This document shows positions 39,117 to 51,389 of a stretch of 64,000 nucleotides of DNA, one piece after another. Position 1 is the stretch's first letter, and every line of letters starts with the position of its first letter. The notes beneath the pieces are model-generated. The model did no database searches and had not been told where the DNA came from. It saw only the letters and a list, made by a program, of their open reading frames with translations. Made by a program: the position numbers and the translations under genes. This DNA is from Caldalkalibacillus uzonensis. GTDB lineage: Bacteria; Bacillota; Bacilli; Caldalkalibacillales; Caldalkalibacillaceae. The DNA is taken from the NCBI RefSeq assembly GCF_030814135.1, contig NZ_JAUSUQ010000001.1, positions 1-64,000 of the forward strand. Direction: 5' to 3'.

Positions 39117-39476
39117 ATGGGAAAAATTCTTGTTGTCGACGATGCTGCTTTCATGCGCATGATGATCAAAGATATTTTGACCAAAAACGGTTATGAAGTG
39201 GTAGGAGAAGCCGCTGACGGCCAACAGGCTGTAGAGCAATATTCGGAATTAAAACCGGATTTAGTCACAATGGATATTACTATGCCCGAAATGGATGGCA
39301 TCACAGCATTGAAAAAAATAAAAGAGATAGATCCTGAAGCAAAGGTGGTCATGTGTTCAGCAATGGGACAACAAGCGATGGTGATTGATGCTATCCAGGC
39401 AGGGGCAAAAGACTTTATTGTCAAACCTTTTCAGGCAGACCGGGTGCTGGAAGCCATAAAAAAAGTGATAGGATAA
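39117..39476 (+). CDS. cheY: Chemotaxis response regulator CheY
   Basis: A 119-residue single receiver domain. Acidic pocket in ILVVDDAAFMRMMI, phospho-acceptor Asp in PDLVTMDITMPEMDG, switch residues in VVMCSAMGQQ and the invariant Lys in FIVKPFQADRVLEAI. It carries the signal from CheA to FliM/FliY. ATG follows AAGGAGG. Confidence 0.97.
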   Translation: MGKILVVDDAAFMRMMIKDILTKNGYEVVGEAADGQQAVEQYSELKPDLVTMDITMPEMDGITALKKIKEIDPEAKVVMCSAMGQQAMVIDAIQAGAKDFIVKPFQADRVLEAIKKVIG

Positions 39477-45054: not shown

Positions 45055-46211
45055 TGAGAGTCAAAAAGTATATTGTGGACAACTTGGCTGAAGCCATGCA
45101 GGAAATTAAACAGGATTTAGGGCACAATGCGGTCATTCTGGATACAAAAAAAGTGAAAAAAAGGGGATTTTTAGGCCTCTTTGGCAAGAAAACACAGATC
45201 GAAGTGATTGCCGCTGCAGATCAAGGCGTAAATCAAAACCAGCACTTTAACAGCCAACCCGTCAGGCTCAGAAGAGAGAGACGCTTAAAAGGAGCAGTTG
45301 CTTCACCAGGTGCTCATCATGCTCTGCCTGCTGCTGAGCATTTGGTTCTAACCCAAGAAATAAAAGAAATTAAGCAGTTTATGCTGAATATGATGGACGG
45401 CGTGCCGCTTCAGATGCCGCCTGCCTTACGACAGGTGGATCAAAAACTGAAACAGCATGGTGTCTTGCCTGACATCCGCGCCCAGCTCCTGCAACAGCTG
45501 CTCACACACTACCAGGGGCACAATGATCAGCTGGACAGCCGGCAGATACGGAAGTTTTTGGTCAATTATTTGGAAACTCTGCCCTTAGGACAGCAACGAC
45601 AGTTGTCCAAATTCATGTGTTTTGTTGGTCCTACAGGTGTGGGCAAAACGACGACCATCGCTAAGCTGGCAGCAGAAATATTGCTTTCCAGGCGTCAAAA
45701 TGTGGGCTTGATCACCGCGGATACATACCGCATTGCCGCTGTGGATCAACTCAAAACCTATGCCCAAATTTTGAATGTGCCTCTGGAGGTGGTTTACTCG
45801 GCACAGGATTTAAAAGCAGCGATGAGCAGGCTGGCTTCTTGTGATTACATCTTGATGGACACTGCCGGCCGCAACTACATGGAAGCCTACTATATTCATG
45901 AACTCAAACAGTTGGTCCCAGACCAACAAGATGTACACACTTGCCTGGTGCTCAGTTTAACCAGCAAGTATGAAGATATGAAGCAAGTGGTGGTTAATTT
46001 CAAAGTATTGCCAATTAATACCTTAATCTTAACCAAAGCGGATGAGACCCACACACTTGGTTCGCTGGTTAACCTGCTGAGTGAATACCGGCTGCCTTTG
46101 GCTTATGTAACCAATGGCCAGAATGTGCCAGATGATTTGCTCTCTCCGTCACCGGAATGGCTGGCCAATACCCTGTTGAGTGAGGGGATAGAAGTTGAAA
46201 GATCAAGCTGA
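45054..46211 (+). CDS. flhF: Flagellar placement GTPase FlhF
   Basis: About 385 residues. The N-terminal B domain starts MRVKKYIVDNLAEAMQEIKQ; the NG domain is SRP-like with [20 protein letters not shown], the box LITADTYRIAAVDQLKTYAQ, DYILMDTAGRNYMEA and NTLILTKADETHTLGSLVNL. It sets flagellar number and position with FlhG. The ATG at 45054 overlaps the flhA stop; GTG 45051 is an alternative. Confidence 0.96.
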   Translation: MRVKKYIVDNLAEAMQEIKQDLGHNAVILDTKKVKKRGFLGLFGKKTQIEVIAAADQGVNQNQHFNSQPVRLRRERRLKGAVASPGAHHALPAAEHLVLTQEIKEIKQFMLNMMDGVPLQMPPALRQVDQKLKQHGVLPDIRAQLLQQLLTHYQGHNDQLDSRQIRKFLVNYLETLPLGQQRQLSKFMCFVGPTGVGKTTTIAKLAAEILLSRRQNVGLITADTYRIAAVDQLKTYAQILNVPLEVVYSAQDLKAAMSRLASCDYILMDTAGRNYMEAYYIHELKQLVPDQQDVHTCLVLSLTSKYEDMKQVVVNFKVLPINTLILTKADETHTLGSLVNLLSEYRLPLAYVTNGQNVPDDLLSPSPEWLANTLLSEGIEVERSS

Positions 46212-47079
46212 ACGTTTAAGAGAAAAGGTTCGCCGTAGTCAGGGAGCAGCTGTCGCGCGCACCATCGCGGTGACAAGTGGCAAGGGCGGGGTGGGCAAGT
46301 CCAATGTGGCACTTAATCTTGCCTTAAGTTTAATGGAACGGGGTAAGCGGACACTGTTATTTGACCTTGACCTTGGTTTTGCCAATCTTGATGTGTTATT
46401 AGGCTACACGCCCCGTTTGACGTTGATTGACATGGTGGAAAAGGGGCTGTCCCTAGATGACGTGATCGAGAGAGGACCGTATGGTTTGGAGTTAATCTCT
46501 GGGGGCTCGGGACTTGGCAGTTTGTTTCACCTCGATCAAGGCCAAATCAATGATATGTTGGATAAACTGGACACTTTATCCAAGCGGCTTGACTATATCA
46601 TTTTGGATACAGGGGCAGGACTGTCGGCCGAATCACTCCGCCTTATGCTGGCTGTTGACGATATATGGCTGGTCACCACACCTGAGCCTACTTCTATGAC
46701 TGATGCCTATGGCGTCATTAAGGCATTGTGCAAATACAATGGGGAGATCAACTTGCATGTCATCGTGAACCGCTGTTACACACCAGTGGAAGGAGTACGA
46801 ACAGCCCGAAGGTTACAAACAGTGGCCAAGCAATTTTTAAATAAGGAGATCCGTTATTTAGGGTATCTGCCCAATGACCCGTCCGTCCACCAAGCGGTTC
46901 TCAGTCAAACGCCTTTTATCAAATTGTTTCCTGCCTGTCAAGCTGCACAGGCCATCGCTGTGCTGACAGCCAGGTATCTTAACCAACCCTTGCAGGATAA
47001 TGCCAGGCGGGAAGGTAGAGGGTTACGTTCCTTTTTCAAGCAGTTGATCGCCCCGTTTCTCCAAAAGGGAACGGGATAA
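46195..47079 (+). CDS. flhG: Flagellar number regulator FlhG (MinD-like ATPase)
   Basis: A 294-residue ParA/MinD-type ATPase. The deviant Walker A is VTSGKGGVGKSNVALNLALS, followed by LLFDLDLGFANLDVLLGY and YIILDTGAGLSAESLRLML. The N-terminus (KDQAERLREKVR) resembles the FlhF-activating peptide, and a basic C-terminal helix could bind membrane. TTG 46195 follows GAGGGGAT and overlaps flhF. Confidence 0.95.
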   Translation: MKDQAERLREKVRRSQGAAVARTIAVTSGKGGVGKSNVALNLALSLMERGKRTLLFDLDLGFANLDVLLGYTPRLTLIDMVEKGLSLDDVIERGPYGLELISGGSGLGSLFHLDQGQINDMLDKLDTLSKRLDYIILDTGAGLSAESLRLMLAVDDIWLVTTPEPTSMTDAYGVIKALCKYNGEINLHVIVNRCYTPVEGVRTARRLQTVAKQFLNKEIRYLGYLPNDPSVHQAVLSQTPFIKLFPACQAAQAIAVLTARYLNQPLQDNARREGRGLRSFFKQLIAPFLQKGTG

Positions 47080-47092
47080 CAGCAGGGTCTGG

Positions 47093-47728
47093 TTGTATGA
47101 GGAGGGAGTACACATTACGCTGTACAGTCAACAAAGACAACTTAAATTTTTAGTGCTAATAGGTGTGTCCACCGGTGGGCCAAAAGCACTGCAATATTTA
47201 TTTTCACACTTAACTGCACGAAAGGATACCGCTTTGCTTGTTGTTCAGCATATGCCTCCTAATTTTACATATTCGCTGGCTAAGCGGCTCAATGAACTGT
47301 CGTCATATTCAGTGAAGGAAGCTAAGCATGGTGATCCCATTAAGGGAGCTCATGCGTATGTTGCACCAGGCGATTACCACTTGGAGATCAGGATGGAAGC
47401 AGGTACTCCTGTGGTGTACTTGACCAAGAAAGCACCTCGTAAAGGACATCGTCCAGCCGTGGATGTGTTGTTCGAGTCAGCTGTTCAGGCCGTAGGTTAT
47501 AGTGTAATCACTGTGATCATGACTGGCATGGGTAAGGACGGAACAGAAGGATTAAAATGGCTCAAGGAGCAAAAACACATTTACTCGTTAGCCGAAGATG
47601 AGTCCAGCTGTATTGTATACGGCATGCCAAAAACGGCGATCGAAGCCGGTCTGGTTGACAAGGTGGTACCGCTCGAAGGCATGCCGGGGGCGATTGAACA
47701 GGCGATAAAAGAACTGGGGGGAGCTTAA
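47093..47728 (+). CDS. cheB: CheB-type methylesterase domain without receiver
   Basis: At most 211 residues, covering only the CheB C-terminal catalytic domain. The triad is visible: Ser in LIGVSTGGPKALQYL, His in LLVVQHMPPNFTYSLAKRLN, and Asp in VIMTGMGKDGTEGLKWL. The N-terminal receiver found in B. subtilis CheB is absent, and only 13 bases separate the gene from flhG, so it is not hidden in another frame. The start is unclear: TTG 47093 has a poor site, while GAGGAGGGAG (47099-47108) points to ATT at 47114. It should remove methyl groups from, or deamidate, chemoreceptors. Confidence 0.88.
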   Translation: MYEEGVHITLYSQQRQLKFLVLIGVSTGGPKALQYLFSHLTARKDTALLVVQHMPPNFTYSLAKRLNELSSYSVKEAKHGDPIKGAHAYVAPGDYHLEIRMEAGTPVVYLTKKAPRKGHRPAVDVLFESAVQAVGYSVITVIMTGMGKDGTEGLKWLKEQKHIYSLAEDESSCIVYGMPKTAIEAGLVDKVVPLEGMPGAIEQAIKELGGA

Positions 47729-47730
47729 CG

Positions 47731-49788
47731 ATGGATATGAATCAATACATGGATGCCTTTATAGATGAGGCTACTCAACATTTACAGTCAATCAATGGAA
47801 ATTTGCTGTTGCTCGAAAAGGAGCCGGCCAACCTTGAACTGGTTCAGGAGATCTTTCGCTCTGCTCACACTTTAAAAGGCATGGCAGCCACAATGGGTTT
47901 TGAAGAAGTGGCTGAGCTCACCCATCACTTGGAGAATGTGCTGGATCAAGTGCGTAACAGAAAATTAACCGTTAGCACACCCATGATGGATACGTTGTTT
48001 TTCAGTGTGGATGCGCTGGAAAAAATGATTGATGCTCTGATCAACGAGGAAAATGCACAAGTTGATGTTGGACAGGTGATACAGGCCTTAAACGGGATTC
48101 AGGGAGACGGTTCTAAGGGGGCATCATCCAGCGGAGAAGAGCAGACACAGGACCGCTCAAGCAGCGTGCCCAGGGCTATTTTGCAAGCGGTTGACCAATT
48201 TGCCCTGACGGTTTTAACTCAATCTGAGGAAACAGGGTTTAACATCTATCACATCCAAGTCACTCTTGATAAAGGCTGTTTATTAAAAGCGGCCCGGGCT
48301 TATATGGTTTTCCAGCTTTTGGAGAGTGAAGGGGAAATCATCCAGACCCTTCCCCCTGTTCAAGATATAGAAGAGGAGGCCTTTGAATCTGCTTTTGAAC
48401 TGATCTATGTTACGAAACAAGACACAGATTATGTTCAACAGCTTATTCATAAAGTTTCAGAGATTGAACAGGTGCATGTTCAGCCGGTAAAAACAGAGGA
48501 GTTGAAGTACCATCAGTCTCAGGAGATAGCGGAAGGAGCCTTAGAAACAGCAGCTGCCAGCGCTCCAAGTGCTGACAGTGAGCAATTGAAGTCTGGGCAA
48601 CCGGAAACATCGCCGCATAGAAACGGATCACAACGGACATTGAATAAAACAATCCGGGTTAATATCGACCGTCTGGATGCTTTGATGAATTTATTCAGTG
48701 AGCTGGTCATTGACCGGGGGCGTCTGGAGAAGATCTCAAAAGAACTTCAGCATCAAGAGTTAATCGAAACGGTGGAACATATGAGCCGTATGAGCAGCGA
48801 CTTGCAAGATCTTATTTTGAATATGCGCATGGTCCCTATAGAACAGGTGTTTAACCGTTTTCCCAAAATGGTCCGCAGTTTGTCACGGGAATTAGGCAAA
48901 GAGGTTGAACTGGCCATGAGCGGTACAGAAACCGAACTGGACCGCACGGTGATTGACGAAATTGGTGATCCTCTTGTGCATTTGCTGCGCAATGCCATTG
49001 ATCATGGACTGGAGACAACGGAGGAACGAAAACGCCTAGGCAAGCCGGAACAGGGACGGCTGGAATTAAAGGCTTATCACAGCGGCAATCACGTCTTTAT
49101 CGAGGTCAGGGATGACGGCAGGGGTATTGACCGCAGCAAAGTGTTAAAAAAGGCCATTGAACGGGGAGTCATTTCCCGGGAACGGAGTGAAGAGTTAAGC
49201 GATCAGGATGTTTACCAGTTATTGTTTGCCTCAGGTTTCAGTACGGCCGAAAAAGTGTCAGACATATCCGGCAGGGGAGTCGGGCTGGATGTGGTGAAAA
49301 ACAAAATTGAATCGTTAGGCGGCAATGTGTCCGTCCTGTCACAGCCTGGAGCTGGCACCACCTTCACGGTCCAACTGCCTTTAACTTTGTCAATTATTTC
49401 CGCCTTACTTGTCAAAGTAATGGATGAGACCTATGCCATCCCACTGACATCGATTATTGAAGTTGCTGCCGTGAAACAGGAAGATATTCGTTCCGTCCAA
49501 GGACAAAGGGTGATCGATTTTAGAGGCAAAGTGGTCCCCCTTGTTTCATTGCAAGATGTATTTGAAGTTCCCGGTGAAGTGGAGGAGGATGGCATCCTTT
49601 CCATTGTGATTGTCAAAAAAGGCGAAAAAATGGCTGGTTTGATTGTTGACTCATTGATTGGTCAGCAAGAAGTGGTTCTGAAAACATTAGGTCAATATCT
49701 TAATCAGGTATTCGCCATATCGGGAGCGACCATTTTGGGGGATGGACAAGTGGCTTTGATTATTGACTGCAATGCACTGATTAAGTAA
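47731..49788 (+). CDS. cheA: Chemotaxis histidine kinase CheA
   Basis: A 685-residue kinase with all five domains. The P1 phospho-histidine is in FRSAHTLKGMAATMGFEEVA; P2 (about residues 160-250) binds CheY; P3 dimerisation begins NIDRLDALMNLFSELVIDRG; the P4 ATPase has LLRNAIDHGLE, VRDDGRGIDRSKV and ISGRGVGLDVVKNKI; P5 is CheW-like. ATG follows GGGGGAG, three bases after cheB. Confidence 0.97.
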   Translation: MDMNQYMDAFIDEATQHLQSINGNLLLLEKEPANLELVQEIFRSAHTLKGMAATMGFEEVAELTHHLENVLDQVRNRKLTVSTPMMDTLFFSVDALEKMIDALINEENAQVDVGQVIQALNGIQGDGSKGASSSGEEQTQDRSSSVPRAILQAVDQFALTVLTQSEETGFNIYHIQVTLDKGCLLKAARAYMVFQLLESEGEIIQTLPPVQDIEEEAFESAFELIYVTKQDTDYVQQLIHKVSEIEQVHVQPVKTEELKYHQSQEIAEGALETAAASAPSADSEQLKSGQPETSPHRNGSQRTLNKTIRVNIDRLDALMNLFSELVIDRGRLEKISKELQHQELIETVEHMSRMSSDLQDLILNMRMVPIEQVFNRFPKMVRSLSRELGKEVELAMSGTETELDRTVIDEIGDPLVHLLRNAIDHGLETTEERKRLGKPEQGRLELKAYHSGNHVFIEVRDDGRGIDRSKVLKKAIERGVISRERSEELSDQDVYQLLFASGFSTAEKVSDISGRGVGLDVVKNKIESLGGNVSVLSQPGAGTTFTVQLPLTLSIISALLVKVMDETYAIPLTSIIEVAAVKQEDIRSVQGQRVIDFRGKVVPLVSLQDVFEVPGEVEEDGILSIVIVKKGEKMAGLIVDSLIGQQEVVLKTLGQYLNQVFAISGATILGDGQVALIIDCNALIK

Positions 49789-49805: not shown

Positions 49806-50288
49806 ATGGTGGACAACTATGATATCAGTGGGGAAAATAAGCTCATTGTTTTCCGCTTAGCTAACGAAGAGTACGCCATTGATGTGGCTCAGGTTCGTTC
49901 AATTGAGCGCATGCAGCCGATTACCCGGGTGCCGCGCACGCCTCCGTTTGTGAAAGGGGTTATCAATCTGAGGGGAGTGGTCACGCCTATTATTGATTTA
50001 CGACGCCGGTTTAACATGGAAGAAATAGAGTATACCAACAACACTCGTATTATTATTGTTGTGGTTGATGAAATGGAAGTGGGCCTGATTGTTGACGCAG
50101 CCAATGATGTAATTGACCTGCCCGCTGATCATATTGAACCTCCCCCGGAGGTTGTGGGGGGCGAGGTGGCCGATTATTTGCGAGGCGTGGTCCAGCTGGA
50201 AAACAGGTTGTTGATTTTGCTTAATCTTGATTGTGTCTTAGCCAGAGATGAATTTCAACCAACTAAAACGATTGAGGCGACATCATGA
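49806..50288 (+). CDS. cheW: Chemotaxis coupling protein CheW
   Basis: A 160-residue SH3-like coupling protein. It shows RLANEEYAIDVAQVRSIERM, ITRVPRTPPFVKGVINLRGV and TPIIDLRRRF, the standard CheW pattern. It bridges receptors and CheA. ATG follows AGGGAGGG; its stop overlaps the cheC start. Confidence 0.97.
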   Translation: MVDNYDISGENKLIVFRLANEEYAIDVAQVRSIERMQPITRVPRTPPFVKGVINLRGVVTPIIDLRRRFNMEEIEYTNNTRIIIVVVDEMEVGLIVDAANDVIDLPADHIEPPPEVVGGEVADYLRGVVQLENRLLILLNLDCVLARDEFQPTKTIEATS

Positions 50289-50920
50289 ATAACTGGAAGC
50301 AATTCAGCAAGATGCACATGGACATATTAAAAGAAATTGGCAACATTGGGGCTGGACATGCTGCTACCTCGTTATCATCATTGTTACAAAAACCGGTTGA
50401 AATGAAGGTGCCTGACGCTCGTTTAGTTTCCTTTAATGAGATTTCTGAACGGTTGGGTGGAGCGGAGCAGGTTGTTGTCACCACTTTACTTACCATTCAA
50501 GGTGATGTGACAGGATATATGTTTTTTATCCTCCAGCAAGACGGTGCAAAAAGGCTGATCCACTCCCTACTTAACCAAGAGGAGGCTGACTCGTGTAATG
50601 AACTTCATTTATCTGCCGTGCAGGAAGTAGGCAATATTTTAAGCGGTTCCTACCTATCAGCTTTGGCTGACTTAACCGGTCTTAACATCCAGCCTTCGGT
50701 CCCCGAAGTAGCCATCGATATGGCGGCTGCCATTTTAAGTTACGGATTGCTTGAAGTTGGGAAAGTGGGAGATCATGCATTGGTGATTGATACATGCTTT
50801 TACGACCGACCCGGTCAGGAGAGACCAATAGAAGGACATTTCTTCCTTTTGCCTGACCCTGATTCTTTTTCAATATTATTTCAAGCATTAGGAGTAACTG
50901 AACATGACAAAGGTGATTAA
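50285..50920 (+). CDS. cheC: CheY-P phosphatase CheC
   Basis: A 211-residue protein with two CheC phosphatase motifs, DILKEIGNIGAGHAATSLSS and SAVQEVGNILSGSYLSALAD, each with the Glu/Asn pair. It dephosphorylates CheY-P and binds CheD, linking adaptation to CheY-P level. Starts four bases before the cheW end and overlaps cheD by 17 bases. Confidence 0.96.
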   Translation: MNNWKQFSKMHMDILKEIGNIGAGHAATSLSSLLQKPVEMKVPDARLVSFNEISERLGGAEQVVVTTLLTIQGDVTGYMFFILQQDGAKRLIHSLLNQEEADSCNELHLSAVQEVGNILSGSYLSALADLTGLNIQPSVPEVAIDMAAAILSYGLLEVGKVGDHALVIDTCFYDRPGQERPIEGHFFLLPDPDSFSILFQALGVTEHDKGD

Positions 50921-51389
50921 CGTCGGAATGGCTGACCTTAATGTCGCTTGTGCACCGGACAAAATCAGAACAACCGGTCTTGGCTCATGTGTAGGGGTTG
51001 TGATCTACGATCCTTCCAGGAAAATAGCAGGATTGGCCCATGTGATGCTGCCCAGCCAGGAGTTTTCCAGGGGAGATACAAATCAGGCTAAATATGCAGA
51101 TACGGCCATTCCTGCTTTAATAGAAAAAATGATAGCTTGTGGTGCCAACAGAAGTCAATTTCAAGCCAAACTGGCAGGCGGTGCACAGATGTTTAAGTTT
51201 CAATCATCAAGCCAGGTGATGCGTATCGGTGAGCGTAATGTGGAGGCGTGCAAATGTCAGCTTGAACGCTTCAACATCCCTGTTGTGGCTGAAGATACCG
51301 GCGGAAATTTCGGACGTACCATCGAGCTGGATACGTTGAACGGTGTACTTTATATACGTACAGCAAACCGGGGTATCAAAGAGCTGTAA
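50904..51389 (+). CDS. cheD: Chemoreceptor glutamine deamidase CheD
   Basis: A 161-residue protein. The catalytic Cys is in TTGLGSCVGVVIYD, the His in IAGLAHVMLP, with the later KLAGGAQMF and VVAEDTGGNFGRTIELD. It deamidates receptor glutamines and is regulated by CheC. Overlaps cheC, so the two are translationally linked. Confidence 0.96.
   Translation: MTKVINVGMADLNVACAPDKIRTTGLGSCVGVVIYDPSRKIAGLAHVMLPSQEFSRGDTNQAKYADTAIPALIEKMIACGANRSQFQAKLAGGAQMFKFQSSSQVMRIGERNVEACKCQLERFNIPVVAEDTGGNFGRTIELDTLNGVLYIRTANRGIKEL

Follow-up and report, generated by a model that had tools for sequence, protein, structure and literature searches.

In Bacillus subtilis, flhG is followed by cheB, cheA, cheW, cheC, cheD and sigD, the same gene order as in the locus described here. 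The activity of CheB is controlled by its own receiver: as long as the receiver is unphosphorylated it blocks the active site, and removal of the regulatory domain activates the enzyme, less than phosphorylation does (PMC8609364). In E. coli, the catalytic domain (CheBc), expressed below the wild-type level (0.7 to 1), is enough for precise adaptation, but the activity then depends very sensitively on the CheR/CheB ratio, and the cells split into two groups; without CheB phosphorylation feedback the kinase activity is bimodal and set by the CheR/CheB ratio, and the role of this feedback is described as a long-standing open question (PMC5809149). For B. subtilis, PMC340952 calls the role of CheB phosphorylation unknown and argues that it does not explain selective methylation, although CheB activity requires it there. 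Losing the CheB receiver is not unusual. Known cases are Campylobacter jejuni, whose CheB is receiver-less (PMC340952), and the F3 class of Campylobacterota, for which a receiver-less CheB is a marker (PMC9321776).

The window analysed here (the whole stretch of 64,000 nucleotides from Caldalkalibacillus uzonensis) contains a flagellar and chemotaxis operon with the gene order fliY, cheY, fliO/P/Q/R, flhB, flhA, flhF, flhG, cheB, cheA, cheW, cheC, cheD, sigD (Table 1). We take the window to come from the class Bacilli, and the names fli, flhA, flhB, flhF and sigD are likewise assigned from gene order and general knowledge. The che operon looks intact both in this genome and in that of a congener (G001), the one other genome of the genus and family that was compared. 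G001 carries the same short cheB in the same place.

Table 1. Coordinates of the che genes and of the translation signals of cheB in the window.
Feature	Position	Strand	Remarks
cheY	39117..39476	+	single receiver
flhG	46195..47079	+	directly upstream of cheB; ParA/MinD-type ATPase matches; same position in G001
rejected canonical start TTG	47093..47095	+	weak, badly spaced site; GGC in G001
Shine-Dalgarno AGGAGGG	47100..47106	+	7 nt before ATT; -12.0 kcal/mol
receiver-less cheB	47114..47728	+	204 residues plus stop; PF01339 over whole model
probable start codon ATT	47114..47116	+	strong site; aligned with ATC in G001
rejected internal GTG	47153..47155	+	without Shine-Dalgarno in both genomes; inside predicted strand
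cheA	47731..49788	+	Hpt, P2, dimerisation, ATPase and CheW domains; no receiver
cheW	49806..50288	+	profile match
cheC	50285..50920	+	profile match
cheD	50904..51389	+	profile match

The reading frame of cheB is open over 47048-47725 and ends with TAA at 47726-47728. In a profile search its product matches positions 1-174 of the 174 of PF01339 (CheB_methylest) with an E-value of 2e-61; this is its sole match, and no receiver family was hit, in agreement with the original prediction of a CheB that has lost its phospho-receiver. The NCBI model for full-length CheB, NF001965, is covered over positions 163-354 of 357 only, and the score of 236.9 bits falls below the cut-off of 293, the N-terminal phospho-receiver that this model includes being absent. 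A second, full-length cheB would have changed the picture; the genome (3.88 Mb, with a listed completeness of 100%) holds a single PF01339 match, which is the gene itself. A sequence error hiding the receiver had also been considered. Only 34 nt separate the flhG stop codon from ATT 47114, which leaves no room for a receiver in another frame, and the one receiver match inside the window is CheY; a hidden or frameshifted receiver is thus ruled out.

The catalytic triad, predicted to be intact, is invariant as S19, H46 and D142 (residues counted from ATT 47114) in an alignment of 20 CheB sequences, and it also aligns to the Ser-His-Asp triad of PDB entries 1chd and 6ymz. The nearest solved structures are a CheB catalytic domain and a full-length CheB. 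The AlphaFold2 model of the product has a mean pLDDT of 94.2, and residues 1-4 are its sole stretch below 50. A hand-coded Nei-Gojobori count between the cheB genes of the window and G001 gives a dS of 1.62 and a dN of 0.171 (dN/dS about 0.11), values that place the gene under purifying selection. Judged from its sequence, cheB is a complete methylesterase domain, the sole copy of its genome, held under purifying selection within an intact che operon.

The remaining chemotaxis genes were searched for in the whole genome. One CheR is present (E 5.6e-58), as it is in all 10 other genomes searched, and six receptors match above the cut-off. CheV was not found in the genome, its three CheW-domain proteins being CheA, CheW and a CheW-like protein that carries no receiver. 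This second CheW-like protein was observed in both congeners (L175, G000:C10:41836; L174, G001:C16), in what we take to be a cluster of late flagellar genes, immediately ahead of an hpf-like gene. A separate receiver serving CheB was looked for; none was found among the receiver frames of at most 194 aa, which are presumably CheY, a Spo0F-like protein, one frame extended at its C terminus and an OmpR-like frame that is truncated. The short single-domain receivers of the genome are only CheY and a second one that resembles Spo0F.

Compared with the full-length CheB of B. subtilis and the sister genera, the protein shares the methylesterase domain and its gene the flhG-cheB-cheA order seen in relatives of the order, but it lacks receiver and linker and its start codon is ATT. 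The receiver-less CheB is a feature in common with C. jejuni and the F3 class (PMC340952, PMC9321776). The F3 class differs in having CheVAW and a CheA that carries an additional receiver, whereas the cheVAW operon and a receiver-bearing CheA are both missing here: no CheV was found in the genome, and its CheA is without receiver. The laboratory fragment CheBc of E. coli has the same domain content and, by prediction, the same constitutive activity (PMC5809149), whereas the gene of the window is natural and has a weak start of its own.

The length of cheB was surveyed in 41 related genomes, the genome of the window included, 33 of which have a PF01339 match. Seven of the 33 (G000, G001, G005, G019, G024, G033 and G038), belonging to six families, have a receiver-less CheB, called as a whole PF01339 domain within an open frame 226-276 codons long; one further genome, with a partial match only, was left out of these seven. 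More short cheB genes occupy the flhG-cheB-cheA position in G043, G058, G072 and G330. Among 80 named loci two are short and lie at this position, those of Lederbergia citrea and Bacillus sp. SD088; a third short one belongs to a metagenome contig and is cut by the contig end. G304 (contig end) and G053 were not counted as losses. In G053 the place of cheB is taken by two overlapping frames in different phases, one for a receiver and one for the CheB catalytic domain (L082, G053:C1, 4474-5645), probably a split gene or a frameshift, for which a programmed frameshift or a sequencing error may be named as well.

Some of the loci collected show other arrangements. In G038 the cheB is receiver-less and cheA is absent between cheB and cheW (L076, G038:C1:3387500-3398500); a 767-codon frame with a CheW domain is found about 2.1 Mb from there and may encode CheA. 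In G359 the stretch covered contains no other che gene. In G003 CheB and CheR domains are joined in one frame of about 1200 codons (L044, G003:C26:12070-13428); this genome carries a normal full-length cheB besides.

The sister family of the order has a full-length CheB between flhG and cheA in 3/3 genomes, and its receiver stretch matches CheY. A tree of the catalytic domain was built from 47 of the 51 collected rows, after removal of two duplicates (L052 and L058), the CheB-CheR fusion (L044) and a row at a contig end (L084). Five state changes are needed on this quick tree, whose deep branches are poorly supported and from which G005, G019 and G033 are absent, and the well-supported branches force at least four. 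As far as the sequences compared indicate, receiver loss is a repeated event within the class. The other receiver-less cheB genes examined have a canonical start codon available, though several of these also have a weak site, so a weak start does not appear to be a general companion of receiver loss. A frame without a usable canonical start seems, as far as seen in two genomes, special to this genus.

The start codon of cheB was assessed with Shine-Dalgarno strength calculated as duplex energy against the 16S tail core. The original prediction had placed the strong Shine-Dalgarno before ATT 47114, a placement borne out by the calculated energy and spacing (Table 1) and by the second genome. 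The in-frame ACG 47117 and CTG 47120 lie farther from the same site. In G001 the cheB frame contains no ATG, no TTG and one GTG between the upstream stop and the conserved GxSTGG motif, and this lone GTG, which has no Shine-Dalgarno, falls within the first beta strand. A site of -12.4 is followed in G001 by two ATC codons, 3 nt and 6 nt away. It is the second of these that aligns with ATT 47114, and the peptides run gap-free from there (ITLYSQQRQLKFLVLIG in the window, ITGYRHQKPLKYLVLIG in G001), with only synonymous differences in the isoleucine, threonine and tyrosine codons. Upstream of ATT only 2 of the 12 codons in frame (AGG/AGA and GGA/GGG) specify the same residue, and the Shine-Dalgarno falls into a different reading frame in G001 than in the window, which is what a non-coding leader should show.

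The start was compared with those of the non-overlapping ORFs of the window that have 130 codons or more, 60 in number. A canonical start with a site of -6 or better at 4-11 nt was seen in 54 of them, which leaves six exceptions, cheB among these. Near-cognate starts at -11 or better occur in two of the 60 ORFs; besides cheB this is an ORF that also has a TTG (-11.9) two codons upstream. Only for cheB does the sole site of -11 or better point to ATT, ATC or ATA. The gene thus combines AUU or AUC behind a strong Shine-Dalgarno with the lack of a canonical rival.

The textbook gene with an AUU start is infC, which is under IF3 control. In all five genomes of the order that were compared, our own included (L199 at G000:C2, L198, L200, L201 and L202), infC has ATT behind a site of -13.1 kcal/mol at 6-7 nt, and no canonical start codon compares with it; in the genome of L201 another ATT, one codon earlier, has the same energy at a distance of 3 nt. 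The site of cheB is therefore built like that of the gene of this lineage expected to be IF3-sensitive; infC itself encodes IF3. Autoregulation by IF3 is mentioned in PMC13009471. There, AUU and AUA starts of Staphylococcus aureus with an extended Shine-Dalgarno give about 10% of AUG expression in poor medium, and cvfC1, whose AUU start follows a strong or extended Shine-Dalgarno, encodes a small zinc-finger-like protein. The GTC start of sigR, a sigma-factor gene of Streptomyces, makes it repressible by IF3 (PMC5472188). A literature search of open-licence papers found no report of a cheB with a near-cognate start. Taken together, the absence of a canonical start in the G001 frame, the aligned ATC, the strong site and the layout shared with infC strongly indicate AUU/AUC as the best reading of the cheB start in both genomes of the genus.

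The account of the locus that we consider likely is that of a functional, methylesterase-only CheB, with a receiver lost in the genus, an AUU/AUC start, a low dose, and adaptation that proceeds without phospho-feedback. The receiver would have been lost in this genus and kept in the sister family of the order, and translation would start at ATT 47114 (ATC in G001), chosen by the strong Shine-Dalgarno about 7 nt upstream. The product should be constitutively active, since with the receiver missing nothing occludes the active site, and near-cognate initiation may keep the amount of this always-active CheB low. The original prediction, which asked for the CheR gene, held that adaptation may rest on CheC and CheD. 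With CheR and six receptors kept, and with CheBc of E. coli able to adapt (PMC5809149), methylation-based adaptation need not be lost and may still proceed through CheR and CheB without phospho-feedback; what this genus would have lost is the activity-dependent correction. The proposal is supported only in part: going by the known biology of B. subtilis, CheC, CheD and CheY-P would be the remaining phospho-dependent loop and may serve as the kinase-dependent feedback.

What the AUU start means is a further question. It may be in use and mean nothing, a reading to which we give somewhat less than an even chance: the deletion that removed the receiver would also have taken the start codon, leaving the old Shine-Dalgarno beside a usable isoleucine codon, with expression sufficient. 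The strong Shine-Dalgarno close behind the flhG stop in both genomes is consistent with this, as is the full-length cheB of G002, which has a TTG start with a strong site, and selection for weakness cannot be shown from as few as two genomes. A single mutation would turn ATT or ATC into ATG, yet it is absent in both lineages across a dS of 1.62. This speaks against a meaningless start, weakly when taken alone: by a rough hand estimate, drift would more often than not suffice to keep the third base other than G.

More tentatively, a translational throttle could have replaced the phospho-switch. An AUU/AUC start discriminated by IF3 would cap the dose of the always-active CheB, lower the translational burst size and tie the CheR/CheB ratio to IF3 and the growth state. 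An enzyme that is always on would be needed at a lower dose, and dose limitation through the start codon, of the kind described for S. aureus and for sigR, is a candidate compensation for the loss of the receiver. Against the throttle stand the canonical starts available to the other receiver-less cheB genes, the small number of two genomes and the estimate for drift given above.

A start at a canonical codon is improbable. TTG 47093 is an accepted start codon in an open frame and would add seven residues, with ATT internal, but its site is weak, as originally noted (-4.1 kcal/mol at 15 nt, the wrong distance). In an ungapped comparison of the upstream regions its position is GGC in G001, a genome that has no canonical codon ahead of beta 1, and the peptide before ATT is largely not conserved. 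The internal GTG 47153, the sole canonical codon of the region common to both genomes, is a still poorer candidate. It has no Shine-Dalgarno (-1.1 in the window and 2.0 in G001), it is residue 14 of the AlphaFold2 model, so that a start there would cut the predicted strand 11-18, and the isoleucine, threonine and tyrosine before it are kept through synonymous changes. Least probable of all is that cheB is a decaying remnant, a reading in line with the lost domain and the poor start codon, but against which stand a dN/dS of about 0.11, the intact triad, the confident model, the retained CheR and the intact-looking operon of both genomes.

On the favoured account of a methylesterase-only CheB read from AUU/AUC, gene finders limited to ATG, GTG and TTG would misplace the N-terminus of cheB, and its start is a further candidate for the small set of near-cognate start codons that are conserved. 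If the throttle were true, the run-tumble set point would be tied to the IF3 level and the growth state through the CheR/CheB ratio. The Bacilli in which the receiver has been repeatedly lost may serve as natural experiments on the question of CheB phosphorylation feedback.
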